Shown here: positions 1,371 through 64,000 of the stretch, in pieces
How positions within the stretch are numbered: position 1 is the stretch's first letter
Layout of the letters: each line of letters starts with the position of its first letter
Assembly: GCF_000214825.1 (NCBI RefSeq)
Contig: NC_015581.1
Span: 930,001-994,000, forward strand
Length of the DNA stretch: 64,000 bases
DNA from: Thiomicrospira cyclica ALM1
Lineage (GTDB): Bacteria > Pseudomonadota > Gammaproteobacteria > Thiomicrospirales > Thiomicrospiraceae
Direction: 5' to 3'
Translations under genes and position numbers: made by a program
Notes under the pieces: generated by a model
The model's input: the letters and a program-made list of their open reading frames with translations, nothing else
The model's database searches: none
What the model was told of the DNA's origin: nothing

Positions 1371-1378
1371 GAGGTTGT

Positions 1379-4389: not shown

Positions 4390-4390
4390 G

Positions 4391-9198: not shown

Positions 9199-10568
9199 TA
9201 GTCATCATCCAAAATGAGCACGCCGGTGGCAACTTTCTGATTATCAAGGCTTACAAAGGGTTTAAAGCGGAATAGGTCGCCGTTCTCGCCTTGTAACACC
9301 GGAATTCCCAAGTTTTCGGCTAAATGACTATGAGCCTTCAAATGTTCCGCTTCGCCATGCACTGGAATGAGTAATGGGGGTTGCAGGGCTTCGTAGAGCT
9401 TAATCATATCGCCCTGACGGGGGTGACCCGAAACATGCAAATGAAGCTCCGGATGATCTTCGGCATGGATCACGGTCAGTTGTAATCGAATCAGTGCCCG
9501 CTCTAACTGACGAATGCGGGTGATGTTATCGGGAATCCGAATCGCACTGAAAATCACGGTGTCACCTGGATCCAACTCTAAAAATCGATGTTGTTGTTTG
9601 GCTAACCGCCATAAACCTGCGTTAGGTTCACCTTGCGAACCCGTCGTCACTAACAGCACTTCATCTTTAGGTAAATAGCCTAAATCTTTGAGCGCAATCG
9701 GTTGTAACTCCTGTGGCCAATAGCCCAACTGACGAGCGGTGGCGACCATATTTTCGAGCGCCCGCCCAGCTAGGGCAAAAAAGCGACCACTGGCTTTGGC
9801 AACGCGGGCGAGGGTAATTAGACGGGCAATATTGCTACTGAAACAACTCACCACCACCCGACCGGGTTGGTTTTGCACCAGCTTTAATAGATCGGGGAAG
9901 CAGGCGCTTTCAGAGGCGGTCTGACCGGGCTTGATCGCATTGGTTGAATCAGCTACCACCGCTAATAAATCTTGGCCGGCGAGGTCTTTAAAAGCCGCCA
10001 GATTAAATGGTTGATCCACCAAGGGTTTCGCGTCAATTTTCCAGTCACCGGTGTGTAATACATAACCTAAAGGCGTGTTGATAACCAAGCTGTGTGATTG
10101 GGGAATCGAATGAGTCACCTGCAACCAATTAACATTGAAAGGCCCAATTTGGTAGTGTTGATGGGGTGTAATGGTGATCAGCTCCACCTTATCCAATAAT
10201 TCGGCTTCGGCAAATTTGCGCCGAATGAGTGCCATCGCAAACGGACTGGCATAGATAGGTTTGCGCAGTTTGGGCCACAAGTGTACCAGCGCTCCAATAT
10301 GGTCTTCGTGCCCGTGGGTAATGACAATGCCACTGAGCTTGCTGATGAAGGGCATTAAGGGGGCAGGGTTAGCAATCACCCGCTGAAATTGCATACTTGA
10401 GCCCTTAATCGGCTCAAAGCCTAGGCCGCAATCGACCATAAGATAATGACCATCATGACCATAGAGCATCATATTTTGGCCGATTTCACCAACGCCACCT
10501 AAAGGTAGGCACCAAAAATCACGCGGATTGGGAATGGGGAGCTGTAACAAGGGTGTGCTTGGGTTCAT
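9198..10568 (-). CDS. rnj: Ribonuclease J-like metallo-beta-lactamase (short form)
   Basis: A beta-CASP metallo-beta-lactamase RNase related to RNase J (exo/endo-RNase of mRNA decay and rRNA maturation). The zinc motif THGHEDHIGA is at residues about 84-93, and HTGDWKIDAKP, ADSTNA, TTGSQGEP, and the late SGHPRQGD and IPVHGEAEH motifs are all present. At 456 residues it lacks the C-terminal dimerisation domain of the ~550-residue Firmicute enzymes. The start is the ATG overlapping the stop of the preceding gene (TAATG); upstream in-frame codons lie inside that gene. Nearby genes for a [2Fe-2S] protein and a flavodoxin are unexpected partners for an RNase. Confidence 0.9.
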   Translation of the reverse strand: MNPSTPLLQLPIPNPRDFWCLPLGGVGEIGQNMMLYGHDGHYLMVDCGLGFEPIKGSSMQFQRVIANPAPLMPFISKLSGIVITHGHEDHIGALVHLWPKLRKPIYASPFAMALIRRKFAEAELLDKVELITITPHQHYQIGPFNVNWLQVTHSIPQSHSLVINTPLGYVLHTGDWKIDAKPLVDQPFNLAAFKDLAGQDLLAVVADSTNAIKPGQTASESACFPDLLKLVQNQPGRVVVSCFSSNIARLITLARVAKASGRFFALAGRALENMVATARQLGYWPQELQPIALKDLGYLPKDEVLLVTTGSQGEPNAGLWRLAKQQHRFLELDPGDTVIFSAIRIPDNITRIRQLERALIRLQLTVIHAEDHPELHLHVSGHPRQGDMIKLYEALQPPLLIPVHGEAEHLKAHSHLAENLGIPVLQGENGDLFRFKPFVSLDNQKVATGVLILDDD

Positions 10569-10870
10569 TAAGCGTCTTTTAGTTTTTGGATGGCATCGAG
10601 TAGGTGTTTTAGTTGTAATTTGCAACAGCCAGTACCATCGCCCGCCATGCAAGCTTCGCGAATTTGTGCCATTGAGCCGGCACCTTCGTGCATGGCTCGG
10701 ATGACGCGTTTTTTGGCAATACTATTACAGACACAGAGGTTATCGTCCAGATCTCGAGTCAGGATTTCTGGAAGATGCGCGATTAATTCCTCATAAGTGA
10801 AGCGATTCGCCAGTTGGCTAAAATCGTATTCAATACTGTCAAAACGGTGCGGTCGCATTAACCTACTCAA
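10568..10870 (-). CDS. BFD-like [2Fe-2S] protein with altered Cys spacing
   Basis: A 100-residue protein whose second half (about 44-95) matches the bacterioferritin-associated ferredoxin-like domain: CVC at residues 46-48, then REACMAGDGTGCC, with cysteines at 74, 82 and 83. Canonical BFD domains end in C-x2-C (as in NirB and NasA here); this protein has adjacent cysteines instead, so either the cluster ligand set is unusual (perhaps using Cys74) or the cluster is lost. The N-terminal ~40 residues are not recognised. It is the first gene of an operon with RNase J and flavodoxin. A TATAAT-like hexamer on its strand lies at 10893-10898, without a clear -35 element. Confidence 0.75.
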   Translation of the reverse strand: MSRLMRPHRFDSIEYDFSQLANRFTYEELIAHLPEILTRDLDDNLCVCNSIAKKRVIRAMHEGAGSMAQIREACMAGDGTGCCKLQLKHLLDAIQKLKDA

Positions 10871-10965
10871 TGACTCGGTTTAAATTGCAATTATTATACG
10901 AACTCCACTCAAAAAATGGCGATAAAAACTAGCAATAGTGATCTTTTATGCGCAATCAACTTGTT

Positions 10966-10971
10966 TATAAT
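10966..10971 (+). promoter_or_regulatory. Probable -10 box of dusA
   Basis: A perfect TATAAT lies 39 bases before the GTG start of dusA. No good -35 hexamer is seen at 16-18 bases. If it is used, transcription would begin near 10978, after the alternative ATG at 10948, which favours the GTG start. Confidence 0.4.
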
Positions 10972-11010
10972 GGAACCAGCTTGTTAATTACGAGAACTAT
11001 TGAGAACCTT

Positions 11011-12066
11011 GTGACACTATCATCTTCTTATTCAAACAGCGCCAACGGATTCTCGGTGGCGCCCATGCTCGATTGGACGGATCGCCATTGCCGTTATTTT
11101 CATCGTTTAATGACTCAGCAGGCGTGGCTCTATTCTGAAATGGTGACCACTGGAGCGATGATTTATGGCAATAATTTACCGCGTTTTATTGGTCGCGATC
11201 CGGCTGACAAGCCCGTGGTATTGCAGTTGGGGGGATCAAAACCTGACGAACTGGCTCAGTGCGCTAAGCTGGGAGAAGAGTGGGGCTATAACGAAATTAA
11301 CCTGAATGTCGGCTGTCCCAGTGATCGGGTGCAGAATAATCTCATTGGTGCCTGTTTAATGGCGCATCCGGCTTTAGTCGCTGACGGTGTTGCTGCGATG
11401 AAGGACGCAGTGACGATTCCGGTGACCGTGAAATGTCGGATTGGGATTGATGATCAAGAAGATTATCAAACCTTAGCGGCATTTATAGCAGGCCTGGTAG
11501 CGGCCGGTGTCGATGGGGTGATCATTCATGCACGTAAAGCCTGGCTACAAGGCTTATCGCCAAAGGAAAATCGCGATGTGCCACCCCTCAACTACACCTG
11601 GGTTCATCAAATTAAAGCGGATTTTCCCCAGTTAGCGATTAGTATCAATGGTGGTTTAAAAACTCTAGCCGATGCCCAGTCACATTTATGTGAATGTGAT
11701 GGCTTGGTTGGCGTCGATGGCGTGATGATGGGACGGGCGATTTATGAAAATCCTTATCTGCTGGCCGATGTCGATGGTGAATTTTATGCTGATCAGCGTC
11801 CGGCTTTATCACGCGGTGACGTTTTAATGGCCATCTATCCTTATATTGAACAGCACTTGCAAAACGGCGGTCGCTTAAATCATATTACTCGGCATATGAT
11901 GGGCTTATTTCACGGCTGTCCTGGCGGACGCTTATGGCGACGGAGCTTATCCGAGCAGGCCTGCTTGCCTAATGCGGGTATTGAGGTTTTGCAACAGGCT
12001 TATCAACGAGTGCAAATAGAAACCGAGCGGATGGCGGAACAGGAGGCGCGGCGTGCTGTATCTTGA
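11011..12066 (+). CDS. dusA: tRNA-dihydrouridine synthase A
   Basis: Flavoenzyme that reduces uridines in the tRNA D-loop (positions 20/20a in the DusA class). The conserved start APMLDWTDRHCRYFHRL follows soon after the N terminus; LNVGCPSDRVQ holds the catalytic Cys; IHARKAWLQGLSPKENR is the DusA signature, and an NGG/GVDGVMMGRA flavin phosphate motif follows. From the GTG at 11011 it has 351 residues, close to the usual 330-345; an ATG at 10948 would add 21 unconserved residues and lies upstream of the TATAAT box. The 3' end overlaps xseA by 14 bases. Two CAGGCCTG palindromes are inside. Confidence 0.93.
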   Translation: MTLSSSYSNSANGFSVAPMLDWTDRHCRYFHRLMTQQAWLYSEMVTTGAMIYGNNLPRFIGRDPADKPVVLQLGGSKPDELAQCAKLGEEWGYNEINLNVGCPSDRVQNNLIGACLMAHPALVADGVAAMKDAVTIPVTVKCRIGIDDQEDYQTLAAFIAGLVAAGVDGVIIHARKAWLQGLSPKENRDVPPLNYTWVHQIKADFPQLAISINGGLKTLADAQSHLCECDGLVGVDGVMMGRAIYENPYLLADVDGEFYADQRPALSRGDVLMAIYPYIEQHLQNGGRLNHITRHMMGLFHGCPGGRLWRRSLSEQACLPNAGIEVLQQAYQRVQIETERMAEQEARRAVS

Positions 12067-13636
12067 AGTACCTTTTGCCCAAAAAGAACAGGCCAAGTCT
12101 TTGGGCGCGCGTTGGGATCCCTTAAAGAAAAAGTGGTATTTACCAGAAGCAGAACATAAAGATTTAACGCCTTTCCAGGCCTGGTTGCCAACCGGTCAGT
12201 TATTGGGGGCAGGGCTGGTTCCAACACCTGTTGCTGTCGATTCCGTCGATGCGAAAGATCAATCTGCCCTTAGCCTGAGCGAACTGCTCGGTCAAGTGCA
12301 GCAACAATTGCAGCTCAGCTTTAATCAGCCTTTGTGGGTTAAGGCCGAGATTGCCAATTTATCTGAGCGAAGAGGGCATTGGTATTTAGAATTGAGCGAA
12401 ACCAATGACCAGGGGCAAAGTTTGGCCAGTTGTCGTGCGATGATTTGGGCTTCTCAAGCCGACTCATTATTAGCGTCATTTGAGCAGGTAACCGGCAGTT
12501 CCTTGGCCGATGGTCAACAGGTGTTGGTTCAGGTGCAGGTTAATTTTCATGAACGCTTCGGTTTTTCATTGGTCATTGTGGGTATTGATCCGAGTTTTAC
12601 TTTAGGTGCTATTGAAGCCAATCTGATTGCGATTCGACAAGCCTTAATTAAGCAGGGCATCTATCAACACAACAAGCGCTTTGCTTGGCCGAGTGATTTT
12701 TTTCGAATAGCGGTGATTGCACCACCGAAAGCCGCTGGGTTAGGGGATTTTAGAACCGAAGCCGATCATCTCGCTAAGCATCAGCTTTGTGAATTCAGTT
12801 ATTTTTATAGCAGTTTTCAAGGTGAAAATACCGCTGAGGAACTGGCTACGGCATTTGAAGCGGTTATCGCACGCCACAAGTATCAGGCTTTTGATGCGTT
12901 GGTCATTATTCGCGGTGGCGGCGCTAAATTGGATCTTAACCCACTGAACACCTGGTCATTGGCAAGTTTAATTGCACAAGCGCCTTTACCGGTTTTTACA
13001 GGGATTGGTCACGAACGGGATAACACCATCTTGGATGAAGTGGCGAATCGTCGTTTTGATACACCGAGTAAGGTGATTGCGGCTATTTGCCAACAACTCG
13101 TGCATTCAGCCAAACAGACGAACCAGGCCTGGCAGCAGATTCAACAAACCAGTTTGATGCAGTTACAACAAGCAAAATCGCATTTAAATCAATTAAAACA
13201 ACAGGTTAATTTTCAGCAGACTCGACAAATTAGCCATTGGCAACAACAGTTAACCCCGTTATATCAACAGATTCACTATACCAGTTTGCGTCAAATTAAC
13301 GTGGTACGCATTCAGCTTGATAACCACATGACCCAAATGCGCCAGCAGGCCTGGCGACCGATTCAGCCCCTTAAAATTCAATTGGCGAATTGGCACCAGC
13401 AATTGAACACGCAAGCCCTGCAACAAGTAAGACAACAACGTCATGCCTGTCAGCAGTGGATTGGGTTTATTTTAAGTGCCGGACCACAAACTCAATTAAA
13501 ACGGGGCTTTGCCTTGGCAAAAACCGCTAATGGACAACCCATCTTAACTGCTAAAGCAGCCCAACAAGCTCAGCAGTTTGATCTTGAATTTGCCGATGGA
13601 TTGGTTAGCGTGAACCTACAGACGAATAAAGATTAA
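12053..13636 (+). CDS. xseA: Exodeoxyribonuclease VII large subunit with N-terminal DUF5710-like domain
   Basis: Large subunit of exonuclease VII, which degrades single-stranded DNA with XseB. The XseA body begins near residue 75 (LSLSELLGQVQQQLQL), with an OB-fold domain, the catalytic region (IAVIAPPKAAGLGDF, IIRGGGAKLDLNPLN, FTGIGHERDNTILDE) and a long Gln-rich coiled-coil C terminus. The protein is 527 residues against ~450 for E. coli, because residues 1-45 form a separate module (VPFAQKEQAKSLGARWDPLK, then KKWYLP) that resembles DUF5710. The GTG start at 12053 has an AGGAGG site 6 bases upstream within dusA, so the extra domain is really translated. Three CAGGCCTG palindromes encode Gln-Ala-Trp. 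Confidence 0.94.
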   Translation: MLYLEVPFAQKEQAKSLGARWDPLKKKWYLPEAEHKDLTPFQAWLPTGQLLGAGLVPTPVAVDSVDAKDQSALSLSELLGQVQQQLQLSFNQPLWVKAEIANLSERRGHWYLELSETNDQGQSLASCRAMIWASQADSLLASFEQVTGSSLADGQQVLVQVQVNFHERFGFSLVIVGIDPSFTLGAIEANLIAIRQALIKQGIYQHNKRFAWPSDFFRIAVIAPPKAAGLGDFRTEADHLAKHQLCEFSYFYSSFQGENTAEELATAFEAVIARHKYQAFDALVIIRGGGAKLDLNPLNTWSLASLIAQAPLPVFTGIGHERDNTILDEVANRRFDTPSKVIAAICQQLVHSAKQTNQAWQQIQQTSLMQLQQAKSHLNQLKQQVNFQQTRQISHWQQQLTPLYQQIHYTSLRQINVVRIQLDNHMTQMRQQAWRPIQPLKIQLANWHQQLNTQALQQVRQQRHACQQWIGFILSAGPQTQLKRGFALAKTANGQPILTAKAAQQAQQFDLEFADGLVSVNLQTNKD

Positions 13637-38938: not shown

Positions 38939-39042
38939 ACCTATTTCTTCACAATATCCCCAGCTCTAGAGCCAGAAAAAAAGACAAGTTAGCTGAGTTT
39001 CGCTAAACTATCTGCTCGCTTAACGCTTTGAAGGATGCGAAT

Positions 39043-39762
39043 ATGCCACATTCAGTGAATGTTGATGAGCAAGAAATTAATCATTTTAATCAACAAGCCC
39101 ATCAATGGTGGGACCCAAATGGCCAGTTTAACGCCTTACATAAGCTCAATCCCTTGCGGATGGATTTTATTCAACAGCATCAGACCTTAATGGCTAAACA
39201 GGTTTTAGATGTCGGTTGCGGTGGCGGCATCCTCTCTGAAGCCATGGCGCAAGCCGGGGCAGAAGTCACTGGACTAGACCTAGCGGCCGACCTATTGCAA
39301 ATTGCGCGGCTTCATGCACTAGATACGGGTGTCAACGTCCATTATGTATTAGACGATGTTGCAAAACATGCCCAAAGCAATTCAGCACAGTACGATATGG
39401 TCACCTGCATGGAAATGCTCGAACACGTCCCCGACCCACAAGCTATTCTTCATGCCTGTGCACAAGCTGTTAAACCAGGCGGCTGGGTATTTTGTTCCAC
39501 GCTTAATCGCTCCAACAAGTCCTTGCTTTTAGCCGTCATTACTGCCGAGTACGTGTTAAATCTTGTACCACGCGGCACACATCACCATGATAAGTTTATT
39601 AAGCCCAGTGAGTTAACGCAAATGGGTCGTGAAGCAGGCCTGGTGATGCAAAAAACCGCAGGAATGGAATTTAATCCTATTTTAAAACGCTATCGTCTTA
39701 ATGATGATTTAAGTATTAACTATCTAATGGCTTTTCAAAAGCCTCTTAACCCAGCATCCTAG
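39043..39762 (+). CDS. ubiG: Ubiquinone biosynthesis O-methyltransferase
   Basis: SAM-dependent enzyme performing both O-methylations of ubiquinone synthesis. The N terminus NVDEQEINHFNQQAHQWWDP is diagnostic, followed by SAM motif I VLDVGCGGGILSEAMAQ (about 54-70), GLDLAADLL and EMLEHVPDP. The ATG at 39043 has an AAGGA site; a TTG five codons earlier is the alternative. The 239 residues are normal. It is the first gene of ubiG-gph-SDR, an order known from Pseudomonas and relatives. Confidence 0.96.
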   Translation: MPHSVNVDEQEINHFNQQAHQWWDPNGQFNALHKLNPLRMDFIQQHQTLMAKQVLDVGCGGGILSEAMAQAGAEVTGLDLAADLLQIARLHALDTGVNVHYVLDDVAKHAQSNSAQYDMVTCMEMLEHVPDPQAILHACAQAVKPGGWVFCSTLNRSNKSLLLAVITAEYVLNLVPRGTHHHDKFIKPSELTQMGREAGLVMQKTAGMEFNPILKRYRLNDDLSINYLMAFQKPLNPAS

Positions 39763-39771
39763 AGCTAACGA

Positions 39772-40440
39772 ATGAGTAAACCTTTTGATTGTGTGTTATT
39801 TGACCTCGATGGTACGTTGTTAGATACCTCGTATGACTTTAGTTATGCCTTAAATCTGCTCTGCGAGCAACATCAATTGACTCCGCCAAGTTATGATGTG
39901 GTACGCAATACCGTATCTCAGGGCGGTGCGGCAGTGACAGCCCTCGCCTTTAGCCCTGATAACCCAGCGAAATTTGAGCAACAACGACAAGCGTTTCTTG
40001 CGCTCTACAAACAGCACATTAATTTACATACCCATATTTTTCCTGGCTTGTTAGCAGGCCTGGTACACCTTACCAAGCATAATATGCCCTGGGGCATTGT
40101 CACCAACAAACCGCAAGGTTTAACCGAACACCTGTTGAGTTTTTTCGAATTTCCTACGCCACCCAAAACCGTGATTTGTGGCGATACCTTAGCGGTGCGC
40201 AAACCCCATCCGGAGCCTATGTGGTTGGCAGCGCAAGAATGTGGTGTCGATCCCAAGCGTTGCTTGTATCTTGGTGACCATCCTCGAGATATTGAAGCAG
40301 GTATGAATGCCGGCATGCAAACCGGTGCGGTCTTGTTTGGCTATATGTCGGCAGAAAAAATGACCAACTTGGCGCAAGCCGATCATATTTTTCGCACTCC
40401 TTACGACATAACAAAATTTTTAACAGAACGGGTTAAGTAA
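39772..40440 (+). CDS. gph: Phosphoglycolate phosphatase-like HAD hydrolase
   Basis: HAD phosphatase with the nucleophile motif VLFDLDGTLLDT (residues about 8-19), motif II VTNKP and motif III/IV KPHPEPM and LGDHPRDIEAG. The 222 residues fit Gph/MupP-type phosphatases that follow ubiG. In Pseudomonas the protein in this position (MupP) dephosphorylates MurNAc-6-phosphate, so the substrate may be that or phosphoglycolate, the latter useful to a carbon-fixing cell. The end overlaps the next start by one base (TAATG). Confidence 0.85.
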   Translation: MSKPFDCVLFDLDGTLLDTSYDFSYALNLLCEQHQLTPPSYDVVRNTVSQGGAAVTALAFSPDNPAKFEQQRQAFLALYKQHINLHTHIFPGLLAGLVHLTKHNMPWGIVTNKPQGLTEHLLSFFEFPTPPKTVICGDTLAVRKPHPEPMWLAAQECGVDPKRCLYLGDHPRDIEAGMNAGMQTGAVLFGYMSAEKMTNLAQADHIFRTPYDITKFLTERVK

Positions 40441-41171
40441 TGGATTTACAACAACATTCAGAAACTATGAAGACATTTTTAATTACCGGTGCCGCGCATG
40501 GCTTAGGTCGCGCACTCGCGCAACACTTGCACAACGAACAGCATCAGTTAATCCTAATTGATAAGGACCTAAAAGCCTTAAACGCGCTCTATGATGAATT
40601 AGATACGGCTGGTTGGAACAATGTGTATTTATTTCCAATGGATCTCGCCGGTTCGGCTCAGGCAGAGTTTGAACAGTTACAACAAGGCTTAACATCATTT
40701 GCCTCACTGGATGGCGTGTTTTTGAATGCCGGCATTCTTCCTGCACTGACCCCTATTGAACACTTTGACCCGCTACAGTGGTATGAAGTGCTGCAAACCA
40801 ATTTAAATGCCAACTTCCATCTCATTCAAACTTGTTTGCCTAAGTTACAAGCCGTTAATCAGCCTAATAATCCGGCTAACCAGGCGTGGTTGGTGGCGAT
40901 TTCTGATCAAGCGATTAGCCAGCCGCAAGCTTACTATGGTGCCTATGCCGTCGCAAAAGCCGGTTTAGAGCAATTGGTGAAAATGACCGCCAAAGAAAAC
41001 GACCGTATTCAAGGCATCATCGCTCGCCTACCGCCACTAGCCGGTCATTTCCGTAGCAAACTATTTCCTGGTGAACCGCCCTGCCAAAATGAAACGGTTG
41101 AATCGGCTGCGGAACGAATTATCTTGAGCTGCTCAAAGCAGGCGCAGCATGCCGATATCGAGGTGCTTTAA
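40440..41171 (+). CDS. YciK-like short-chain dehydrogenase
   Basis: A 243-residue SDR oxidoreductase. The cofactor motif is TGAAHGLGRALAQHL (residues about 17-31), the NAG motif is LNAGIL, and the catalytic Tyr-x3-Lys is in YGAYAVAKAGL. It corresponds to the SDR that follows ubiG and gph in many gammaproteobacteria (YciK family), whose substrate is unknown. The translated N terminus begins with nine poorly conserved residues; an internal ATG at residue 10 (MKTFLITGAA) is an alternative start. It overlaps gph by one base. Confidence 0.85.
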   Translation: MDLQQHSETMKTFLITGAAHGLGRALAQHLHNEQHQLILIDKDLKALNALYDELDTAGWNNVYLFPMDLAGSAQAEFEQLQQGLTSFASLDGVFLNAGILPALTPIEHFDPLQWYEVLQTNLNANFHLIQTCLPKLQAVNQPNNPANQAWLVAISDQAISQPQAYYGAYAVAKAGLEQLVKMTAKENDRIQGIIARLPPLAGHFRSKLFPGEPPCQNETVESAAERIILSCSKQAQHADIEVL

Positions 41172-41209
41172 CCATGAATATTATCGATTTCGCAATTATG
41201 CTGTGAGAT

Positions 41210-41524
41210 TTAAATCCCTGCAACCAACATATCGACAGCTGACAAGATAACATCTCGATAGCTTTCAACTGAAATGACAGACTCACTTAATTGCTTTTTT
41301 GAAACCGAAGTTAACAAGTGAGTCATCAATACATAATCGGTTTGATTAAGCTGAATAACAGGCGTGAGTCGCTCTAAACATTTATTAACCAACTCAAGTG
41401 GCGATAATGGAATAACAACTCGCGTATTCAAATCAGCCAATAACTCATGCTGGATATCGATAAAAAAAGGATAAACAATGTTTGAAGTTTGGTTTTCATT
41501 TTTATAAAGAATGAATTGCCCCAT
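41210..41524 (-). CDS. ccdB: CcdB-family toxin
   Basis: A 104-residue protein with the CcdB pattern: FILYKNENQTSNIVYPFFID, then VVIPLSPLELV and a long C-terminal helix. F-plasmid CcdB poisons gyrase through the C-terminal Trp-Gly-Ile; here the end is VAGI, so Gly-Ile remain but the Trp is Ala. This makes classical gyrase poisoning doubtful. The start overlaps the ccdA stop by one base (TGATG); a GTG one codon earlier is also possible. It lies between the convergent SDR gene and ccdA. Confidence 0.88.
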   Translation of the reverse strand: MGQFILYKNENQTSNIVYPFFIDIQHELLADLNTRVVIPLSPLELVNKCLERLTPVIQLNQTDYVLMTHLLTSVSKKQLSESVISVESYRDVILSAVDMLVAGI

Positions 41525-41769
41525 CACAACACCCTATGCTCGTCGGAGAATAAGCCGTGTTTATCGGTAAAGTCATTCATCGCATTGATAGCAGAACGAT
41601 TTTGATTTAACCAATTATCGCGTGCTTTTTGTTTCAACTTCTCTAACAAAGCTTGTTCCAAGGTTGCAGAAATATTGATATTTTCAGCGCGTGCCTTGGC
41701 TAACAAATCAGCATTTAAACTCACATTCGTTGGTTTTTTTACCGCTGTTTCGTCAAATAAATAAGACAT
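41524..41769 (-). CDS. ccdA: CcdA-family antitoxin
   Basis: An 81-residue antitoxin. The N-terminal part (KKPTNVSLNADLLAKARAEN, about 10-29) is the ribbon-helix-helix DNA-binding region, and the C-terminal half (about 40-81, ARDNWLNQNRSAINAMNDFT followed by DKHGLFSDEHR) is the toxin-binding tail typical of CcdA. A GAGG site precedes the ATG. The family represses its own operon; an inverted repeat 19 bases upstream is the best operator candidate. It is coupled to ccdB. Confidence 0.9.
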   Translation of the reverse strand: MSYLFDETAVKKPTNVSLNADLLAKARAENINISATLEQALLEKLKQKARDNWLNQNRSAINAMNDFTDKHGLFSDEHRVL

Positions 41770-41787
41770 ACAAACCTCACATACTAA

Positions 41788-41806
41788 TGCGCATAAAATA
41801 TGCGCA
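41788..41806. promoter_or_regulatory. Inverted repeat upstream of ccdAB, candidate operator
   Basis: TGCGCAT (41788-41794) and ATGCGCA (41800-41806) form a perfect 7-bp inverted repeat with a 5-base A/T spacer, 19 bases before ccdA. A ribbon-helix-helix dimer such as CcdA could bind it; that is inference. Confidence 0.5.
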
Positions 41807-41843
41807 CTAGCTAAATTAACAGATTCTACTTCAGTAAGCTAGC

Positions 41844-44165
41844 CTACTTGCGTTTTAATTGTGCGAATTTATCCGCTAAGGTACCGAAGCTGTTATTGGG
41901 TGTTGTTGCAGGTGACTTGGCGTGTTGTTGATATGTTTTTTTCGCCGATGCAGCTTGCGCCACCAGACCCGGAGAACTAGCCGTTTGATTGACCACCGGA
42001 CTAGTCTTCATCGACAAACTAATGCGCTTACGGGCGGCATCAACCTCTAATACGGTCACCTTCACTATCTGCCCCGCTTTCACCACCTCACGTGGATCGC
42101 TGACAAAGGTGTTCGACAGATGCGAAATATGCACCAGCCCGTCTTGATGCACCCCGACATCTACAAAAGCGCCAAAATGCGTCACATTGGTGACCACACC
42201 TTCCAACACCAGGCCTGGTGTTAAGTCGTTTATTTCAGTAATCGCGTCATTAAATTGTGCGGTTTGAAAAGTCGGCCGAGGATCACGCCCCGGTTTTTCC
42301 AGTTCAACTAAAATATCACGTAACGTCGGCAAGCCAATATTATCAGTGACAAAATCCTGAATCTTAATTTGTTTAATCAACGCGCTTTGACCAATCAAAT
42401 CACCGACTTTTACCCCTAAACGCTGCGCCATTTGTTCAACAATCGCATAGGATTCCGGATGCACCGCCGATTGATCCAGCGGATGCTCACCCTGTCGAAT
42501 GCGTAAAAACCCGGCACATTGTTCAAAGGCTTTCGGCCCCAATCGCGGCACTGTTTTCAGTTGCTTACGATTACGAAACGAACCGTTATGATCGCGCCAA
42601 GCCACAATATTTTTGGCCAAAGTCGATGATAAACCGGACACATAACTCAACAAGGCACTGGAAGCGGTATTTAAATCCACCCCGACCGAGTTGACACAAT
42701 CCTCAACCGTGGTTTGCAAGGATTGCGCCAACGCAGCTTGATTGACATCATGCTGATACTGCCCGACGCCAATCGCTTTCGGATCGATTTTCACCAACTC
42801 CGCCAATGGGTCTTGCAAGCGTCGACCAATCGAAATCGCACCACGAATCGTCACATCCAACTCAGGGAATTCCTGCTGCGCGATCTCGGATGCCGAATAG
42901 ACCGACGCTCCCGCCTCCGATACCACCACTTTTTGGGTCTGGCTTAATTTAAAGTCTTTTAAGGTTTCCGACACCAGCTGCTCGGTTTCGCGTGACGCCG
43001 TGCCATTACCAATGCTCACCAATTCAACCCCATAGTCTTTAATCAACTTAGCCAACTGCTGTTTACTTTGATCCCATTGGTTTTGTGGTGCGTGCGGATA
43101 GATCACCGCTTGATGGAGAAACTTACCGGTTTGATCCACCAGCGCTAATTTCACCCCGGTGCGATAACCCGGATCCAGTGCCAGCGTGACTTTAGCACCC
43201 GCCGGTGCGGCAAGTAACAAGTCTTTTAAGTTCTGTGCAAAGACCTCAATCGCGACCTGTTCGGCTTGATCACGCAAGCGGCTAAACAATTCGTTTTCCA
43301 ATGACTTCGCCAATTTTAATCGCCAGGCCTGGTGAATAATTTGACTAAAAAAGATCTGGCTGGGCAAACGTTCAAACTGCAACTGATGGAATTGCTGAAT
43401 TCTGGCTAAAAACGGATGCGATGCCGAAGACTCAACATCAGGCAAATCCAATTTAAGGCGCAAAACCCCGGCTTGCTCACCACGAAATAACGCCAGCGCA
43501 CGGTGCGATGGGATTTTATGAACCGGCTCAAGATAGTCGTAATAATCTTTAAATTTTTCGCCTTCGTCCACCGCTCCGCTGACTAACTGGCTGGTGACCA
43601 CACCTTCACGCCATAGGGTTTCGCGTAACTCGGCTACCAGGCCTGGTGCCTGCGACAACTGTTCCGTTAAGATGTCCTGCGCACCGCTTAATGCCGCTTC
43701 AGCGGTTTCGATGCCCTTCTCAGGGTTAATATAGGCCTGCGCTTCGTTTAGCGGATCAAGTTGCGGATTGGCCAATAATGCCTGCGCCAGCGGGTCAAGC
43801 CCCGCTTCTTTGGCTTTTAAGGCTTTCGAGTTGCGGGTGAGTTTGTAAGGGCGATAAATGTCTTCCAACTCGGTTTTACTAAAGGTGTTTTCCACCGCAC
43901 TTTGCAGTTCCGGGGTGAGTTTTTGTTGCGCCGCCAAGCTTTTGAGAATGGTTTGTTTACGCTCATGCAGACTGGTTAAATACCCCAAACGAATTTCGAG
44001 CTGACGTAACTGATTATCGTCCAAGCCTTGGGTGACTTCTTTACGATAGCGCGCGATAAACGGCACCGTTGCGCCCTCGCTGAGTAAGGCAATCGCTGCC
44101 GCCACTTGATTGGGTTTTACCTTTAATTCCTCGGCAATAATTTGCGCAAAATTTAAATGGTCCAT
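41844..44165 (-). CDS. tex: Tex-like RNA-binding transcription accessory protein
   Basis: A 773-residue Tex family protein. N-terminal helical domain (AAAIALLSEGATVPFIARYR, about 23-42), RNase H-like YqgF domain (TLALDPGYRTGVKLALVD), helix-hairpin-helix repeats (LNTASSALLSYVSGLSSTLA and VPRLGPKAFEQCAGFLRI) and a C-terminal S1 domain (LVLEGVVTNVTHFGAFVDVG, then VHQDGLVHIS). Tex is an Spt6-related nucleic-acid binder affecting transcription and virulence genes in other bacteria. A terminator separates it from lysS upstream. Three CAGGCCTG palindromes occur, including the longest in the window (18 bp). Confidence 0.96.
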   Translation of the reverse strand: MDHLNFAQIIAEELKVKPNQVAAAIALLSEGATVPFIARYRKEVTQGLDDNQLRQLEIRLGYLTSLHERKQTILKSLAAQQKLTPELQSAVENTFSKTELEDIYRPYKLTRNSKALKAKEAGLDPLAQALLANPQLDPLNEAQAYINPEKGIETAEAALSGAQDILTEQLSQAPGLVAELRETLWREGVVTSQLVSGAVDEGEKFKDYYDYLEPVHKIPSHRALALFRGEQAGVLRLKLDLPDVESSASHPFLARIQQFHQLQFERLPSQIFFSQIIHQAWRLKLAKSLENELFSRLRDQAEQVAIEVFAQNLKDLLLAAPAGAKVTLALDPGYRTGVKLALVDQTGKFLHQAVIYPHAPQNQWDQSKQQLAKLIKDYGVELVSIGNGTASRETEQLVSETLKDFKLSQTQKVVVSEAGASVYSASEIAQQEFPELDVTIRGAISIGRRLQDPLAELVKIDPKAIGVGQYQHDVNQAALAQSLQTTVEDCVNSVGVDLNTASSALLSYVSGLSSTLAKNIVAWRDHNGSFRNRKQLKTVPRLGPKAFEQCAGFLRIRQGEHPLDQSAVHPESYAIVEQMAQRLGVKVGDLIGQSALIKQIKIQDFVTDNIGLPTLRDILVELEKPGRDPRPTFQTAQFNDAITEINDLTPGLVLEGVVTNVTHFGAFVDVGVHQDGLVHISHLSNTFVSDPREVVKAGQIVKVTVLEVDAARKRISLSMKTSPVVNQTASSPGLVAQAASAKKTYQQHAKSPATTPNNSFGTLADKFAQLKRK
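42205..42222. repeat. Longest member of the CAGGCCTG palindrome family
   Basis: AACACCAGGCCTGGTGTT is a perfect 18-bp palindrome inside tex, where it encodes part of Pro-Gly-Leu. Two further copies lie in the same gene at 43324-43331 and 43638-43645. Confidence 0.95.
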
Positions 44166-44182
44166 AGGTGTCCTTTGATAAC

Positions 44183-44207
44183 AAAAACCCCGTAAAAACG
44201 GGGTTTT
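44183..44207 (-). terminator. Terminator between lysS and tex
   Basis: AAAACCCCGT (44184-44193) pairs with ACGGGGTTTT (44198-44207) around four A's; on the minus strand five T's follow. It lies 46 bases after lysS and 18 bases before the tex start. Confidence 0.9.
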
Positions 44208-44252
44208 AAGTTAACGCAATCTGCGTCGTTTCTGTTCAGCGTAATGCGACTA

Positions 44253-45773
44253 TTAAGCCGGACGCATATGCGGAAATAATAAAACATCCTTGATGCTCGC
44301 CGCGTCGGTGAACAGCATCACCAGCCGGTCGATACCGATGCCCTGTCCGGCCGCCGGTGGCATACCGTGCTCTAATGCAGTGATAAAGTCGGCATCGTAA
44401 TGCATGGCTTCATCATCGCCGGCATCCTTAGCGCGAACTTGATCCATAAAACGCTCGGCTTGGTCTTCGGCATCGTTTAATTCAGAGAACCCATTGGCCA
44501 GTTCACGCCCACCGATAAACAATTCAAAACGGTCGGTAACAAACGGATTCGCGTCATTACGACGTGCAAGCGGTGATACTTCCGCTGGATACTCGGTGAT
44601 AAAGGTCGGGTCCATTAAACGATGTTCAACGGTTTCTTCGAAAATCTCGGTTTGAATTTTGCCTAAGCCATAACCAGGCCTGATGTCGATTTTTAGTTTT
44701 TCCGCTAACGAAATGCAATATTCGATGTCATCAAGGTCTTCAACCTTCACACCTTCGTTATACAGGGCAATCGAATCTTTCATGGTGATTCGGGCAAACG
44801 GCTTATCAAAGTGAAATACTTGACCTTGATAAGGAACCTGGCCAGAACCCAGTACCATCTGAGCCAATTCTTTAAACATCTCTTCGGTGTAATCCATCAT
44901 ATCGATGTAGTCGGCATAGGCCTCATAAAACTCGACCATGGTGAACTCCGGGTTATGGCGGGTGGACAAGCCTTCATTGCGGAAATTACGGTTAATCTCA
45001 AACACCTTTTCAAAGCCACCGACCAACAAACGCTTAAGGTAAAGCTCTGGCGCAATACGCAAATACAGCGGCATATCCAACGCATTGTGGTGGGTCACAA
45101 AGGGCTTCGCCGATGCGCCGCCCGGAATCACCTGCATCATTGGGGTTTCGACTTCCATAAAGCCTTTACGCACAAAAAATTCACGCATCGCATGAATCAC
45201 TTTTGAGCGGGTTTCAAAGGTTCTGCGGCTTTGCTCAGACATAATCAAGTCTAGGTAACGCTGGCGATAACGGACTTCTTGATCTTGCAAACCATGGAAC
45301 TTATCCGGTAGTGGGCGCAAAGCCTTGGTTATCAGCTCAATCGATTCAACGTGAATCGATAATTCATCAGTATTGGTTTTAAACAAATACCCACTCACTC
45401 CAACGATGTCGCCCAAATCCCATCTTTTAAATTGCTCGTTGTAAAAACCTTCCGGCAATTCATCACGAGTAACATAGGCTTGAATACGACCGCTCATATC
45501 TTGCAAGGTGGCAAAGCTGGCTTTACCCATAATGCGACGCAACATCATGCGGCCGGCAACCTTTACACGCACCGGCTCCATGGCGGCTAACTCATCTTTG
45601 GTTTTATCGCCGTAGGTGCTTTGTAAATCCTGTGCTAACACATCACGACGGAAGGTATTCGGATAAGCCTGCCCTGCTTGACGCAAGCCGTCTAATTTGG
45701 CGCGGCGCTCGGCAATGATTTTGTTTTCGTCTAGCTCAGGCGTGTTTGAAGATGTTGATTGCTGTTCTGACAT
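44253..45773 (-). CDS. lysS: Lysyl-tRNA synthetase, class II
   Basis: Charges tRNA-Lys. An N-terminal anticodon-binding OB domain ([18 protein letters not shown], about 70-87) is followed by the class II core with motif 2 ([26 protein letters not shown]) and motif 3 ([12 protein letters not shown]). The 506 residues are normal for bacteria. It lies downstream of prfB, the conserved prfB-lysS pair, but with a structured spacer of 138 bases. A terminator follows. Confidence 0.97.
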
Positions 45774-45809
45774 GTTCCATTCCTAATTTTGTCTGTTGTT
45801 CACTACAGG

Positions 45810-45892
45810 GATACGATGATATTCAATCTTTGGTGCTTTCGCCTTGAGTAAGGCGAAAGTACAAAATGGAAGCACAAGTCTGACCTCGTATC
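45810..45892. other. Nested inverted repeats in the prfB-lysS spacer
   Basis: An inner 10-bp perfect hairpin, CTTTCGCCTT (45836-45845) with AAGGCGAAAG (45850-45859), is enclosed by GATACGA (45810-45816) and TCGTATC (45886-45892). A competing pair GTGCTT (45833-45838)/AAGCAC (45870-45875) overlaps the inner stem. No T-run follows on either strand, so this may be a processing or regulatory structure in the prfB-lysS transcript rather than a terminator. Confidence 0.55.
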
Positions 45893-45911
45893 GCTCTAGT
45901 TACCTATTTAA

Positions 45912-47007
45912 CTACAAACCGGCCTTTAAGCTGGCTTCAATAAACTGATCTAAATCGCCATCCAGTACGGCCGTGGTATTGCCGGTTTCAACGCTGGTGC
46001 GCAGATCTTTAATCCGTCCAGAATCGAGTACATAAGAGCGAATTTGACTGCCCCAACCGATATCCGACTTCGAGTCTTCCAGCGTCTGTTTTTCACTATT
46101 GCGTTTTTGCATTTCCAATTCATACAGCTTGGCACGCAATTGTTTGAAAGCTTCGTCTTTATTCTGATGTTGCGAGCGGCCATTTTGACATTGCACCACG
46201 GTATTGGTTGGCAAATGGGTAATACGCACTGCAGATTCGGTTTTGTTAACGTGCTGACCACCCGCGCCACTGGCGCGGTAAACATCAATGCGCAGGTCAG
46301 CCGGGTTAATATCGATCTCTACGTTATCGTCCACTTCTGGTGAAATAAACACCGATGCAAACGAGGTATGACGCCGATTGCCCGAGTCAAACGGGGATTT
46401 CCGCACCAAACGATGAACACCGGTTTCGGTACGCATCCAGCCATAGGCATAGTCACCCACCACATGAATGGTCGCGCCTTTAATGCCGGCCACTTCACCG
46501 TCAGACACTTCTAACACCTCTGCCTTAAAGCCTTTTGACTCAATCCAGCGCAAATACATGCGTAACAACATACTCGCCCAATCTTGCGCTTCGGTACCAC
46601 CTGAACCTGACTGGATTTCCAAATAACAGTTATTGGCATCCATTTCACCGGAGAACATACGCTGAAACTCTAATTCATCGAGTTTTTGCTGTAAATCAGC
46701 AAGCTCGTTTTCAACCTCGCCAACCATGGCTTCATCTTGATCCATTTGAGCCATTTCAAGCAACTCTTTACAAGCGTCCAAACCACCGATGAGATCATCT
46801 AAAGTGCCAACAATATTGTCTAGCTGAACTTTTTCTTTACCCAAGGATTGGGCACGCCCTGGGTTATCCCAAATTTTGGGATCTTCGAGTTCGCGACTCA
46901 CTTCTACCAGGCGTTCTGACTTGGTTTCATAGTCAAAGATACCCCCTAAGCACTTGACTGCGGTCGGTGTAATCTTGAATGCGGTTGTATAGCGGATTCA
47001 GTTCCAT
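45912..47007 (-). CDS. prfB: Peptide chain release factor 2, with programmed +1 frameshift
   Basis: Recognises UGA and UAA stop codons. The first 24 codons (from ATG 47005-47007, [13 protein letters not shown]) end at an in-frame UGA; the remaining protein is in the +1 frame, giving 364 residues in total. The tripeptide SPF that reads the stop codon and the catalytic GGQ ([13 protein letters not shown]) are present. The 3' frame alone (45912-46901) would lack the N terminus. The frameshift autoregulates RF2 level in most bacteria. lysS follows downstream. Confidence 0.96.
46932..46947 (-). promoter_or_regulatory. Programmed frameshift site of prfB
   Basis: On the minus strand, the internal Shine-Dalgarno AGGGGG (46942-46947) is followed by TATCTTTGAC, the classical RF2 slip site in which CTT is decoded, then UGA C (stop at 46933-46935) is bypassed by +1. 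Confidence 0.95.
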
Positions 47008-47066: not shown

Positions 47067-47100
47067 CTAAGGATTCAACCGGAATGACCGTAATCCTTAG
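47067..47100. repeat. Inverted repeat in the prfB/47130 divergent region
   Basis: CTAAGGATT (47067-47075) and AATCCTTAG (47092-47100) form a perfect 9-bp inverted repeat with a 16-base spacer. It lies 29 bases before the start of the DUF5610-like gene and 59 bases upstream of prfB, so it could be an operator or a leader hairpin for the plus-strand gene. Confidence 0.6.
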
Positions 47101-47129
47101 AGACCAAATTCATTGCTGAGGATAGAAAA

Positions 47130-47782
47130 ATGACCAGTATTAATCCCGTTTCAAAAGCTCTTCCCAGCTTAGCACAAAATAATTCCAGTGCTAGCGCCAA
47201 CAGTCCAGCAAAAAAAGCTTAAATCAAGCACAAGAAAAATCCGCTGGTCAAGCACCAGGCCTGGTTATGAATGTTGGCGATATGGAGCAACAAGCCTCAA
47301 AAGAAAACGCGCGTATTCAAGCACAAGTAAGCATTGTTCAACACTTGTTTGGCGATAAAAGCAAAGTTGATCAGAACGCGTTAAAAATTCTATTTCAAGA
47401 GGCGATTGATCAAATTAACCAAGCCCTTGAAGCAGATTTAGGACCTGATGCGATTAGTGCCGAAAAGCTGGCTGAACAAGGTTGCAAGGACTATTGGTCT
47501 CCGGAAAATACCGCTGGACGAATTGTACAAGGCACCACCGCCATGTTTGAAGCTTTTAGAACGACTAATCCTAAATTGGATGATGAGGCAGCCCTCGACC
47601 GTTTTATAAAGGATATTGGTGGTGGTATTGAACAAGGCTTTCAACAAGCCAGAGACATCTTAACTGGTTTTGGCGTTTTTGATGCTGGCATTAAAGATAA
47701 TGCGGAAAAAACTTATAAGTTGGTGCAGCAGGGTTTGCAAGACTTTAGAGCGCAGCAGCTTGATAAAATGCGGACTGAATAA
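47130..47782 (+). CDS. DUF5610-like protein, split by a frame change at an A7 run
   Basis: The conserved part, from the ATG at 47267 (171 residues), resembles DUF5610: a long helix (about 15-70), then YWSPENTAGRIVQG, and a C-terminal GGGIEQGFQQARDILTGFGV. The better start is the ATG at 47130 with a GAGG site; it reads 30 codons (MTSINPVSKALPSLAQNNSS...) and stops at 47220-47222. Just before the stop, the run A AAA AAA (47210-47216) is a canonical -1 slippery heptamer, and a -1 step joins this N terminus to the main frame as SLNQAQEKSAGQ. One added A would do the same. So it may be frameshifted translation, a phase-variable tract, a mutation or a sequencing error. A CAGGCCTG lies at 47256. Confidence 0.65.
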
Positions 47783-47809: not shown

Positions 47810-48355
47810 TCAATTTGCCTTATAAAATACTGAGTATTGCATAAAGTTTTTATGAGGTAACATGTAATACATTGCGATCAAATAAACATACCAAGCGATG
47901 GTCTCAAGAAACTCTTCTAAAAATAAACTATGCACGGATGTAATCCAGCCACGATCAAAGATACCAGCAATAATCAACAATATAGCTGCTAAGGTAAATC
48001 TATAGAAGTTATAAGTTTGTAAAAACGCTACTACAACAGGAAATATAGATGAAATACGATAAAAGCTATATATTATATAGGGAAAAAAAACGATTAACGT
48101 TGTATATAAAGCGCCATCAGGAGTTGTTAGATAATAAAGAATACCAGTAATTTGGGTGTCTCTGAAGTCCATCTCTCGCAATAAAAATGCAAAGGTCAAA
48201 AGGAAAAAACCAACCAATAAATACCTGTACTCAAAGCTTTTAGCCTTGATTAAACCTATCAAACTCAAAAACCAAGCAATAATAAGAAAGGCTAGTTGAA
48301 TGTTCTCGTATAGATTGTTTTCGTCTGCAATATTAGGATTTGTTACATAATACAA
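47810..48355 (-). CDS. Hypothetical polytopic membrane protein
   Basis: An A/T-rich gene for a 181-residue protein with about five hydrophobic segments (near residues 20-38, 45-62, 82-102, 105-132 and 148-166); not recognised. The annotated start is TTG at 48355 without a convincing ribosome-binding site. The frame stays open to 48451 without ATG, GTG or TTG, and the upstream residues (VGGFFLILALYYV) would complete another membrane helix. A GAGGTG (48448-48453) stands at the head of that extension, so a rare start such as ATC or ATT is possible. It is downstream of the universal stress protein gene. Confidence 0.5.
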   Translation of the reverse strand: MYYVTNPNIADENNLYENIQLAFLIIAWFLSLIGLIKAKSFEYRYLLVGFFLLTFAFLLREMDFRDTQITGILYYLTTPDGALYTTLIVFFPYIIYSFYRISSIFPVVVAFLQTYNFYRFTLAAILLIIAGIFDRGWITSVHSLFLEEFLETIAWYVYLIAMYYMLPHKNFMQYSVFYKAN

Positions 48356-61121: not shown

Positions 61122-61719
61122 TTAACTTGCGTAACACTGAAACAACGACTCCCCAAATAACCAGCTCAGTTTCCTCAGCTACAGCAATGGGTTGATAGGC
61201 TGGATTCTCAGGATAGAGCCAAATCTGTCCTGCTTGTTTAATTAATCGCTTCAGGGTTAAATCCCCATTCACCGAGGCGATAACAATGTTGCCGGACACT
61301 GGTGTAATACTGCGATCAATCACCAATTGATCACCCGGCAAAATCCCCGCCTGTTGCATCGAATCGCCTTGAACTCGCACCACAAAGCTGGTTTTTGTAT
61401 GAGGCACAAAAACCTCGTTCAAATCAATCGTTTCTTCTTGGTTGTCATCAGCTGGTGAGGGAAAACCCGCAATTACCTTGTGGCTAAACACGGGCAAGGC
61501 CAATTCGGTGATTGGATTAACGCCTTTAAAGCCAGGCTCTAAATCGAAAGTATGCCGTTCGCAAGGTTCTTGCCACTGTTGTAACCAGGTTTTAATAAGA
61601 GTGACTTTCGATCCAGGTACGCGCATCACCTTGGTGGCCTCGCCATAAGGACCACTGCCTGCCTTACGACCAGCTCCCTCCCGCTTACCGCCACGTCCTG
61701 ATTTGTCCTTGCTAGCCAT
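61117..61719 (-). CDS. umuD: UmuD-like SOS protease with N-terminal extension
   Basis: S24 (LexA/UmuD) self-cleaving protein of the SOS response, which after RecA-stimulated cleavage activates the UmuC polymerase. The cleavage bond is Ala84-Gly85 (VIAGFPSPADD), the nucleophile is Ser120 (GDSMQQAGILPGD) and the general base is Lys157 (LTLKRLI); the 36- and 37-residue spacings equal those in E. coli UmuD. E. coli UmuD has only 24 residues before the cut; here 84, including a basic GKREGAGRKAGSGPYGE segment and RVPGSKVTLIKTWL that looks like a small DNA-binding region. It overlaps the upstream exonuclease gene by 8 bases. Confidence 0.92.
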   Translation of the reverse strand: MASKDKSGRGGKREGAGRKAGSGPYGEATKVMRVPGSKVTLIKTWLQQWQEPCERHTFDLEPGFKGVNPITELALPVFSHKVIAGFPSPADDNQEETIDLNEVFVPHTKTSFVVRVQGDSMQQAGILPGDQLVIDRSITPVSGNIVIASVNGDLTLKRLIKQAGQIWLYPENPAYQPIAVAEETELVIWGVVVSVLRKLI

Positions 61720-63184
61720 GAATTTCGCCTCCCTCTTCCAACCACACTAAGGGCTTAATCACCATGCCCGCTGGTGGCTTTAATAAAAACTTACATAAAA
61801 TCCGATAGGCATCTAAATCAAGTGACTGCTCACAAGCAGGCCTGCTGCTCAAGGCTTCAAATAGGCTCGTCTCATCTTCAACATCTGTAATAACTTGCCA
61901 TTGATACACCAACAGCCCCCGTTCACTGGTTGGGGTTTCTCGAACCAGTACCGGGCCTTGCCAAGGCCAGGCCTGCTGCTGCCAAGTCTGTAACGCTAAA
62001 TCCTGACGAAGATTGTACGCAAGCGGCAACTCTTCTTGCACACAAGCACCACGACACTGCTTTAATTGATAGGCAAAACAGCTGCCCTTGGCTTTCTTAT
62101 CTAGCCCCGTTAAACGTTGACACAGATTCGCATCCTTAACCTTGGTTCGCATCGCTTCTTCCGCTTGTTTTTGCGAACGAAACAGCCCAAAACTCTGATG
62201 TAATTCATCGGCGGTGAGTCCGTCATTTGCCACCAGTTTCATTTGCGCATAGCCGTCTTGGTTTAGATGCCTTACCCAGCGCCACAAACGGGTATGTTTG
62301 CGCAATTTAACATTATATTGTGGCGATAAGGTCTTGATTTGTTGGGACTCTAGCAGTTGCGCACTCAAGTCGCCGTCGCATTCTGTCCAATCGACATGAT
62401 GTATCTCACTCACCATCTTAAGATTTTTTGCGGCACGATGATCCTGGGTAAAGTGACTTAAAATACGCGTGCGCAGCTGCACCGATTTACCGACATATAA
62501 CAACTGGCCTTGCGCACCATAAAAGCGGTACACGCCCGGTACATCTTCACAATCAGCCAATTCACTCGGATCGAGATTGGCCGGTAGGCTAGGTTGGGCT
62601 AACAGCTCAGCTAATAAAGACCAAATACGATCCGCCGATACCTCGTGGGTTAATTGCGCTAAAAAGGCAGCGACGAGATCCACATCGCCCATCGCACGAT
62701 GACGGTCAACCTGTGGCAAAGCATAACGCGTCACTAAATGATCCAGGCCGTGACGTTTATGCTCCGGAAACAGCTGTCTTGATAACTTAACCGTACATAA
62801 GGTCGTTGCCCGCCAATCAATACCTATTCGCTTAAACTGATGTTTAATAAAACCATAATCAAAGCGCGCATTATGAGCTACAAAAACTTTATCGGCTAAC
62901 AGTGCCGCCAAATCCTCGGCAATCTCCTCAAAAAGCGGTGCCTCGGCAACCATCGCATTGCTAATCCCGGTTAAGCGAGTAATCCACGGCGGAATGGTTC
63001 GGTGCGGACGAATCAGCTGTTGCCAAGATTGCACCCACTCTCCTTGATGAAAGCGTTGCACCGCGATTTCAATAATCTCATCTAGCCCTGGCTTGCCGCC
63101 GGTCGTTTCAATATCCACTAAAACCCAGTCCTCTAAATTAAAGCCAACCGGTTTTGCAGACCACCATGTCCAAGTCTGTGTCAT
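61712..63184 (-). CDS. DEDDh exonuclease fused to a GIY-YIG endonuclease domain
   Basis: A 490-residue repair-type nuclease. Residues about 18-185 form a DnaQ-like 3'-5' exonuclease (VLVDIETTGG, VAHNARFDYGFI, HRAMGDVD), and about 208-300 a UvrC/Cho-like GIY-YIG domain (DVPGVYRFYGAQGQLLYVGK followed by SVQLRTRILSHF). The rest (about 300-490) has a Cys-containing region (CFAYQLKQCRGACV). This matches the DnaQ-UvrC fusion family seen in some proteobacteria and actinobacteria. It lies between umuC and umuD with no gap on one side and an 8-base overlap on the other, so it is likely SOS-expressed and acts in lesion processing. Confidence 0.9.
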   Translation of the reverse strand: MTQTWTWWSAKPVGFNLEDWVLVDIETTGGKPGLDEIIEIAVQRFHQGEWVQSWQQLIRPHRTIPPWITRLTGISNAMVAEAPLFEEIAEDLAALLADKVFVAHNARFDYGFIKHQFKRIGIDWRATTLCTVKLSRQLFPEHKRHGLDHLVTRYALPQVDRHRAMGDVDLVAAFLAQLTHEVSADRIWSLLAELLAQPSLPANLDPSELADCEDVPGVYRFYGAQGQLLYVGKSVQLRTRILSHFTQDHRAAKNLKMVSEIHHVDWTECDGDLSAQLLESQQIKTLSPQYNVKLRKHTRLWRWVRHLNQDGYAQMKLVANDGLTADELHQSFGLFRSQKQAEEAMRTKVKDANLCQRLTGLDKKAKGSCFAYQLKQCRGACVQEELPLAYNLRQDLALQTWQQQAWPWQGPVLVRETPTSERGLLVYQWQVITDVEDETSLFEALSSRPACEQSLDLDAYRILCKFLLKPPAGMVIKPLVWLEEGGEIHG

Positions 63185-64000
63185 TTAATGCACCACCAAA
63201 ATTTCATCAAACCGTGTGGTATAACGCGGCGAGCATTTCGCGCGACGCATCGCCCACTGCGCCTTATCCGCCAAGCCTTCGGCGGCAAACTGAATCGACC
63301 CGCGACCCATTTTTTGATTAATCGCATCCAACGTCGTCATCAAAGCTTCTGCTTTGGGGTTAGCTGAAAACCTAGGATTGGGCGCAAAAGCATCTAATTG
63401 CAACGGTCCTTTATCACTTATCGCCGAAAGGGTTACAGCGGCTTTGTGATACGCCAGGCCTGGTTGCCAAACCCGCTTGAGTAAGCGTTTTGCTAGCTTA
63501 ATCAACAACTGACTATTATCGGTGGGATAAACCAACCCCATGCCATGCGAGTTAGCATAATAAGGCTGTTTCGTATCATAAGGATTGGTTCGCAAGTGCA
63601 CATGAATATGCTGACACACCGAGCCTTGCTGACGCAGCTTTTCCGCCGCACGCGCGGTATAACTCGCCACGGCCTGAGCCAGCCAATCCCATTCCATCAC
63701 CGGTTGACCAAACGAACGTGAACGAATAATTTGCTGTTTTGCCGGTGCCACCATTTCGAGTGCTAAACAACTTTCTCCGTTCAACTCGGCAATCAAACGC
63801 TCCATCACCACCGAAAAATGACGCCGTAAGGTCTTAGCATCGGCCTGTTGTAAATCATAGGCGCTCTGAATATTCAGCGCCTGTAACTTAGGAGCCATGC
63901 GTCGCCCCACTCCCCAAACATCACCCACAGGCACTTGTTTTAACAACGCCGTTCGAGTCGCGGAGCTCACTGCAGTTAAATCTAGCACCCCATCAAAAGC
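63185..64000 (-). CDS. umuC: DNA polymerase V catalytic subunit, C-terminal part
   Basis: C-terminal ~271 residues of a Y-family translesion polymerase, cut by the window edge. The reading frame is open to 64000 (AFDGVLDLTAV...), so the GTG at 63988 is internal. PVGDVWGVGRRMAPKLQAL is the helix-hairpin-helix thumb, followed by HFSVVMERLIAELNGESCLAL and the little-finger domain (IIRSRSFGQPVMEW, SYTARAAEKLRQQGSVCQHI), all close to UmuC. Its stop is directly followed by the exonuclease ATG. The order umuC-exo-umuD is opposite to the usual umuD-umuC. The promoter and any LexA box lie outside the window. Confidence 0.93.
   Translation of the reverse strand, partial: AFDGVLDLTAVSSATRTALLKQVPVGDVWGVGRRMAPKLQALNIQSAYDLQQADAKTLRRHFSVVMERLIAELNGESCLALEMVAPAKQQIIRSRSFGQPVMEWDWLAQAVASYTARAAEKLRQQGSVCQHIHVHLRTNPYDTKQPYYANSHGMGLVYPTDNSQLLIKLAKRLLKRVWQPGLAYHKAAVTLSAISDKGPLQLDAFAPNPRFSANPKAEALMTTLDAINQKMGRGSIQFAAEGLADKAQWAMRRAKCSPRYTTRFDEILVVH

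Follow-up and report, generated by a model that had tools for sequence, protein, structure and literature searches.

A one-base frameshift in a flagellum-linked DUF5610 gene of Thiomicrospira cyclica ALM1: probable gene decay in a bacterium without flagella

The DUF5610 gene of Thiomicrospira cyclica ALM1 is divided between two reading frames at a run of seven adenines, which raises the question of whether the division is a programmed shift, a switch, an error in the record, a shortened working gene or a lesion. A genuine one-base frameshift in a flagellum-linked gene that is decaying in the non-flagellated T. cyclica is considered the probable answer. All coordinates refer to the window, the whole 64,000-nucleotide stretch that was analysed (NC_015581.1, positions 930,001 to 994,000), which is part of a closed chromosome of 1,932,455 bp. 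The features concerned are listed below; G000 is the T. cyclica ALM1 genome, and G001 and G008 are two congeners.

47068 to 47094, plus strand: putative relic sigma-28 (FliA)-type promoter, with a -35 box TAAGGATT at 47068-47075, an 11-bp spacer and a -10 box ACCGTAAT at 47087-47094
47118 to 47121, plus strand: Shine-Dalgarno-like GAGG, kept in G001 and G008
47130 to 47222, plus strand: 5' end of the DUF5610 gene, in which a premature TAA follows 30 codons read from the ancestral ATG; in-frame N terminus in every congener
47210 to 47216, plus strand: A7 run, site of the one-base deficit against G001, seen as one single-base gap in the alignment
47216 to 47782, plus strand: rest of the DUF5610 gene in the shifted frame, with no further stops and a complete DUF5610 domain at about 47375-47746
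47267, plus strand: possible internal ATG, private to G000; close congeners that align there have Val

The whole break is confined to 47208-47222, where the sequence is phased GCA AAA AAA GCT TAA, so that the zero frame reads the run as A AAA AAA, with the TAA at 47220-47222. The original prediction had described an ATG at 47130 with a GAGG site and 30 codons to a TAA at 47220, and every coordinate holds; its A7 run at 47210-47216, lying in the zero frame two codons ahead of the stop, was confirmed in the sequence. Stepping one base back links MTSINPVSKALPSLAQNNSSASANSPAKK to SLNQAQEKSAGQAPGLV-MNVGDMEQQ... and the 171-codon open reading frame at 47267-47782, so that the predicted joining of the N terminus to a 171-residue DUF5610 frame by a -1 shift was also confirmed. 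The downstream frame matches DUF5610 (PF18433) with E=8.5e-31 and 107 bits, against a curated cut-off of 26.4, over positions 2-117 of the 117-position profile. The structure 3sjr_A, of an uncharacterised protein, is a weak profile match to DUF5610 (E=2.4e-4). Runs of at least seven A or T number 25 in the 64-kb window and lie mostly within long open genes; the A7 tract by itself is unremarkable, and the broken frame is the unusual feature. Immediately downstream lies a 181-residue open reading frame (47810-48355, minus strand) with an A8 run at 48083-48090, for which no reciprocal best hit was found in the examined stretches of G001, G008 and G007.

In each of the eight congeners, with Thiomicrospira sp. 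ALE5 and T. microaerophila among the named ones, one continuous frame beginning at the equivalent of 47130 covers both the N terminus and the domain of DUF5610. The earlier view that the piece starting at ATG 47130 and the DUF5610 frame are one gene was thus right, and a check of the orthologue start site, which falls at the equivalent of 47130 and not of 47267, links the upstream piece to the gene. Since the orthologues are built in this way, the 30-codon piece is the true N terminus, and the one-base break is private to G000. The nearest relative, G001 (84% identity), reads MTSINPAAKAILTPAQNNSSANANNPAQKGLNQAQEKSGGQAPGLVVNVGG... at the site, with a single one-base gap against the window. The DUF5610 gene is carried by 54 of the 63 genomes of the order, and its longest open frame measures 195 aa in G000 and 221-269 aa in the other 53 carriers; G000 is the sole sampled carrier of the order that is broken by a one-base offset. 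The window copy shares family and domain span with the short single-domain form of DUF5610 (PF18433), orthologues of which occur throughout the genus, and differs from the other sampled carriers of the order in its offset frame. A separate case within the order is a draft metagenome-assembled genome with flagellin (G058:C23:24221-24715, L081), whose DUF5610 gene has one in-frame TAA; this stop codon may be an exception to the flagellar pattern described below or an artefact of the assembled genome.

The comparison of orthologues bears directly on two explanations that would give the tract a function. A low-level fusion product could arise on A AAA AAA through a programmed -1 shift of the ribosome or through transcriptional slippage, and the heptamer is indeed correctly phased and placed two codons ahead of the stop, as in dnaX-type programmed -1 frameshifting, where the same heptamer lies in phase just ahead of a zero-frame stop. 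However, no relative keeps the heptamer or the split frames: it is present at the site in none of the eight congeners, G001 and G008 having A5 and the others no corresponding tract. The comparison of the tract among orthologues that had been proposed as a check therefore went against the idea. Furthermore, the 74 nt 3' of the tract fold no better than shuffled sequences (z=+0.78; 151 of 200 shuffles at least as good), which bears out the earlier remark that a strong downstream stimulator is absent, and no Shine-Dalgarno-like stimulator was seen upstream. Unlike a dnaX-type site, the heptamer here is neither conserved nor accompanied by stimulators, and a shift would mend an N terminus that the relatives encode directly. 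Because the heptamer and the two-frame layout are exclusive to G000 and lack a stimulator, programmed shifting is not supported; with neither conservation nor folding above shuffles it was rejected, and it is regarded as extremely improbable.

The second explanation, also put forward in the original prediction, is an on/off switch through slippage between A7 and A8. A homopolymer does lie at the frame break, but a seven-base tract is short and far from rare in the window (25 runs of A or T reaching at least seven per 64 kb), the congeners have A5 or nothing at the site, and there is no sign of a surface-exposed product. Phase variation was rejected on tract length and conservation; the several independent marks of decay in the gene also speak against it, and it is given very little credence, slightly more than programmed shifting. 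A classical programmed +1 frameshift site occurs in the adjoining prfB gene for release factor 2 (minus strand, 46933-47007), where an in-frame TGA (46933-46935) follows AGGGGGTATCTT; a genuine recoding site thus lies about 200 bases from the false one.

The signs of decay were found in substitution patterns. Along the DUF5610 gene, unique amino-acid and synonymous changes number 23 and 19 on the G000 branch; for the G001 branch the corresponding numbers are 3 and 21. The skew of the G000-branch changes places the gene first of 35 neighbouring genes (Fisher p=0.011 against background) when syntenic G001 and G008 genes serve as references and blocks with G001-G008 recombination are left out, a restriction to non-recombined genes that was chosen after the result of a first test, which included the recombined blocks (dS about 0.3) and gave p=0.33, was known. 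A codon branch model on nine orthologues, with a FastTree tree, estimated omega at 0.25 for the G000 branch and at 0.027 for the remaining branches (p=0.002), without rejecting omega=1 and with the caveat that synonymous sites are near saturation. A three-sequence codon test again ranked the gene first of 35 (p=0.04). Because a single-branch scan also found branch L006 significant, in the direction of stronger constraint, the codon test is noisy near saturation. In addition, nine positions that do not vary among the other eight sequences are changed in G000, the most of any, with replacements that include V>D, T>R, G>D and G>C. Taken from these substitutions, the gene appears to be decaying. 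Across tests the G000-branch omega is 0.12-0.25, still below 1, and the 188 codons contain no second stop or frameshift; since omega is below 1, the branch has probably evolved mostly under constraint, and the decay must be recent or partial.

Two observations concern the references used above. In blocks at approximately 1-13600, 39000-47000 and 61700-64000, G001 and G008 resemble each other unusually closely (dS about 0.3, not >1), which suggests homologous recombination between the two lineages. The protein encoded at 7977-8717 has a 44% match to both G001 and G008, which are mutually identical there.

The main rival to genuine decay is a base-call or assembly error, by which the gene of the strain would be intact and one base missing from the record. 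A one-base break at the edge of a homopolymer, in a genome whose assembly drew partly on 454 reads, fits such an error, as does the openness of the remaining frame. The paper on the ALM1 genome (PMC4891895) gives a polished assembly from 1,521x Illumina and 38x 454 coverage, an annotation with 19 pseudogenes and an error rate below 1 per 100,000 bases; the stated rate allows up to about 19 errors genome-wide. A base-call error at the A7 is nevertheless unlikely because of the 1,521x Illumina coverage with polishing (PMC4891895), A7 being an easy length for Illumina reads. Moreover, most of the roughly 25 comparable runs in the window do not interrupt their genes, and the signs of decay lie at other positions, independent of the one-base call. 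An error of sequence is accordingly held to be unlikely, while still the strongest of the alternatives.

Among the signs that are independent of the frame is the state of the promoter. The consensus used in the promoter scan is that established for FliA promoters. Upstream of the orthologues are putative promoters of the form TAAAGTTT-N11-GCCGATAA; the -10 box in congeners reads GCCGTAAT, GCCGTAAA or GCCGATAA, with GCCGTAAT in G001. The -35 box is identical in G000, G001 and G008, and the first base of the -10 box is changed in G000 only. Compared with shuffled sequences, the promoter site of the window gave p=0.30; all eight congeners gave p<=0.025. A sigma-28-like promoter was detected at p<0.05 in 36 of 52 DUF5610 loci, and a repeat of the scan detected it in 32 of 51, compared with 1-6 of 51 in four control placements (the reverse strand, the inside of the gene and two windows shifted upstream). 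The scanned loci are related and so not fully independent, and 10 to 12 of 22 distant loci also pass. From these candidate sigma-28 promoters, the orthologues look like members of the FliA regulon. They share with FliA class 3 flagellar genes a TAAA-like -35 box, an N11 spacer and a GCCGATAA-like -10 box; G000 differs in its impaired -10 box and its missing FliA.

The loss of flagella in T. cyclica is evident from its genome. Flagellin is present in 62 of the 63 genomes of the order, G000 being the sole exception. FlhA, found in eight of the nine genomes of the genus, was not found in G000; FliA over the cut-off was likewise found in eight of the nine and not in G000, which has weaker matches only, consistent with other sigma factors. 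Strain ALM1 has been described as non-motile (PMC4891895).

The loss of FliA also bears on the possibility that the gene still yields a truncated working protein, translation restarting at the new ATG 47267 to give 171 residues. Such a product would be readable from the internal ATG with the whole DUF5610 domain, its frame is open and omega is below 1. However, ATG 47267 is a private change with a poor ribosome-binding site and lies 44 bases past the stop, the sigma-28 -10 box is altered and FliA is absent. Omega is also raised, and private replacements, among them G>C, G>D, V>D and T>R, fall within the domain itself. A truncated working protein is therefore thought distinctly improbable, somewhat more so than an error of sequence.

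Genuine decay of a flagellum-linked gene agrees with the wider distribution of DUF5610. In a sample of 377 gammaproteobacteria, 29 of which have DUF5610, flagellin occurs in 27 of the 29 carriers compared with 183 of the 348 non-carriers (p=8e-6, with genomes taken as independent). The copies are intact in all 27 flagellin-bearing carriers, and both copies in the two flagellin-less carriers, G000 and G308, are broken. The gene in G308 (G308:C330:2866-3123, L078/L082) carries a nonsense codon as well as an internal deletion, and judged by these lesions it is probably a second, independent case of decay in another family. Within that family, intact DUF5610 was found in 18 of 20 flagellin-positive and none of four flagellin-negative genomes (p=0.0014, shared ancestry ignored, one of the four being only 64% complete). 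DUF5610 is not required for flagella, because nine members of the order of G000 have flagellin without it (eight in g2 and g5, two other genera of the family of G000, plus G050).

Gene neighbourhood was set aside as an argument for a flagellar role, only G400 having the gene within a flagellar cluster, where it adjoins a ycgR-like gene, flgN, flgM, flgA, a cheV-like gene and flgD. Outside G400, DUF5610 genes are mostly not in flagellar clusters, some neighbours being chemoreceptors; in G442 and G438 the neighbours are not flagellar, except for a flagellin-like gene about 9-14 kb away. In the literature searched, no mention of DUF5610 was found, and no earlier tie to flagella. The case resembles flagellar-regulon pseudogenes formed after flagellar loss in that flagellin, FlhA and FliA are gone, the promoter is altered, amino-acid change is raised and the frame is broken; it differs in that the decaying gene encodes an uncharacterised DUF with no flagellar tie in that literature.

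The ancestral gene would have been read in one frame from ATG 47130 to 47782 under a FliA (sigma-28) promoter, giving a DUF5610 protein of about 215 residues that served alongside the flagellum. The lineage of T. cyclica would have lost FliA and the flagellar system, so that the DUF5610 gene became dispensable and began to decay; under relaxed selection its -10 box would have been altered and conserved residues replaced. The loss of one base at the junction of A7 and GC would then have ended translation from the true start after 30 codons. We infer this order of events, as well as a service of DUF5610 to the flagellar or chemotaxis system and a remaining frame with little or no expression.

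As a lesion the frameshift is commonplace, and its value lies in a clue to the function of an uncharacterised family: DUF5610 seldom occurs without flagella, bears sigma-28-like promoters and is either missing or disrupted in the tested flagellin-less genomes of two families. It is rather likely, with less assurance than the decay itself, that DUF5610 proteins belong to the flagellar/chemotaxis system of gammaproteobacteria as a so far unrecognised accessory, expressed from FliA promoters and repeatedly lost or broken with flagella, the window copy representing one such loss at an early stage. The role of DUF5610 thus becomes testable. Outside the order (e.g. L059-L077) the family occurs in two builds, a short one of about 200-270 residues and a long one, with an added region at the C terminus, of about 375-600 residues, and both builds have sigma-28-like promoters in many cases.
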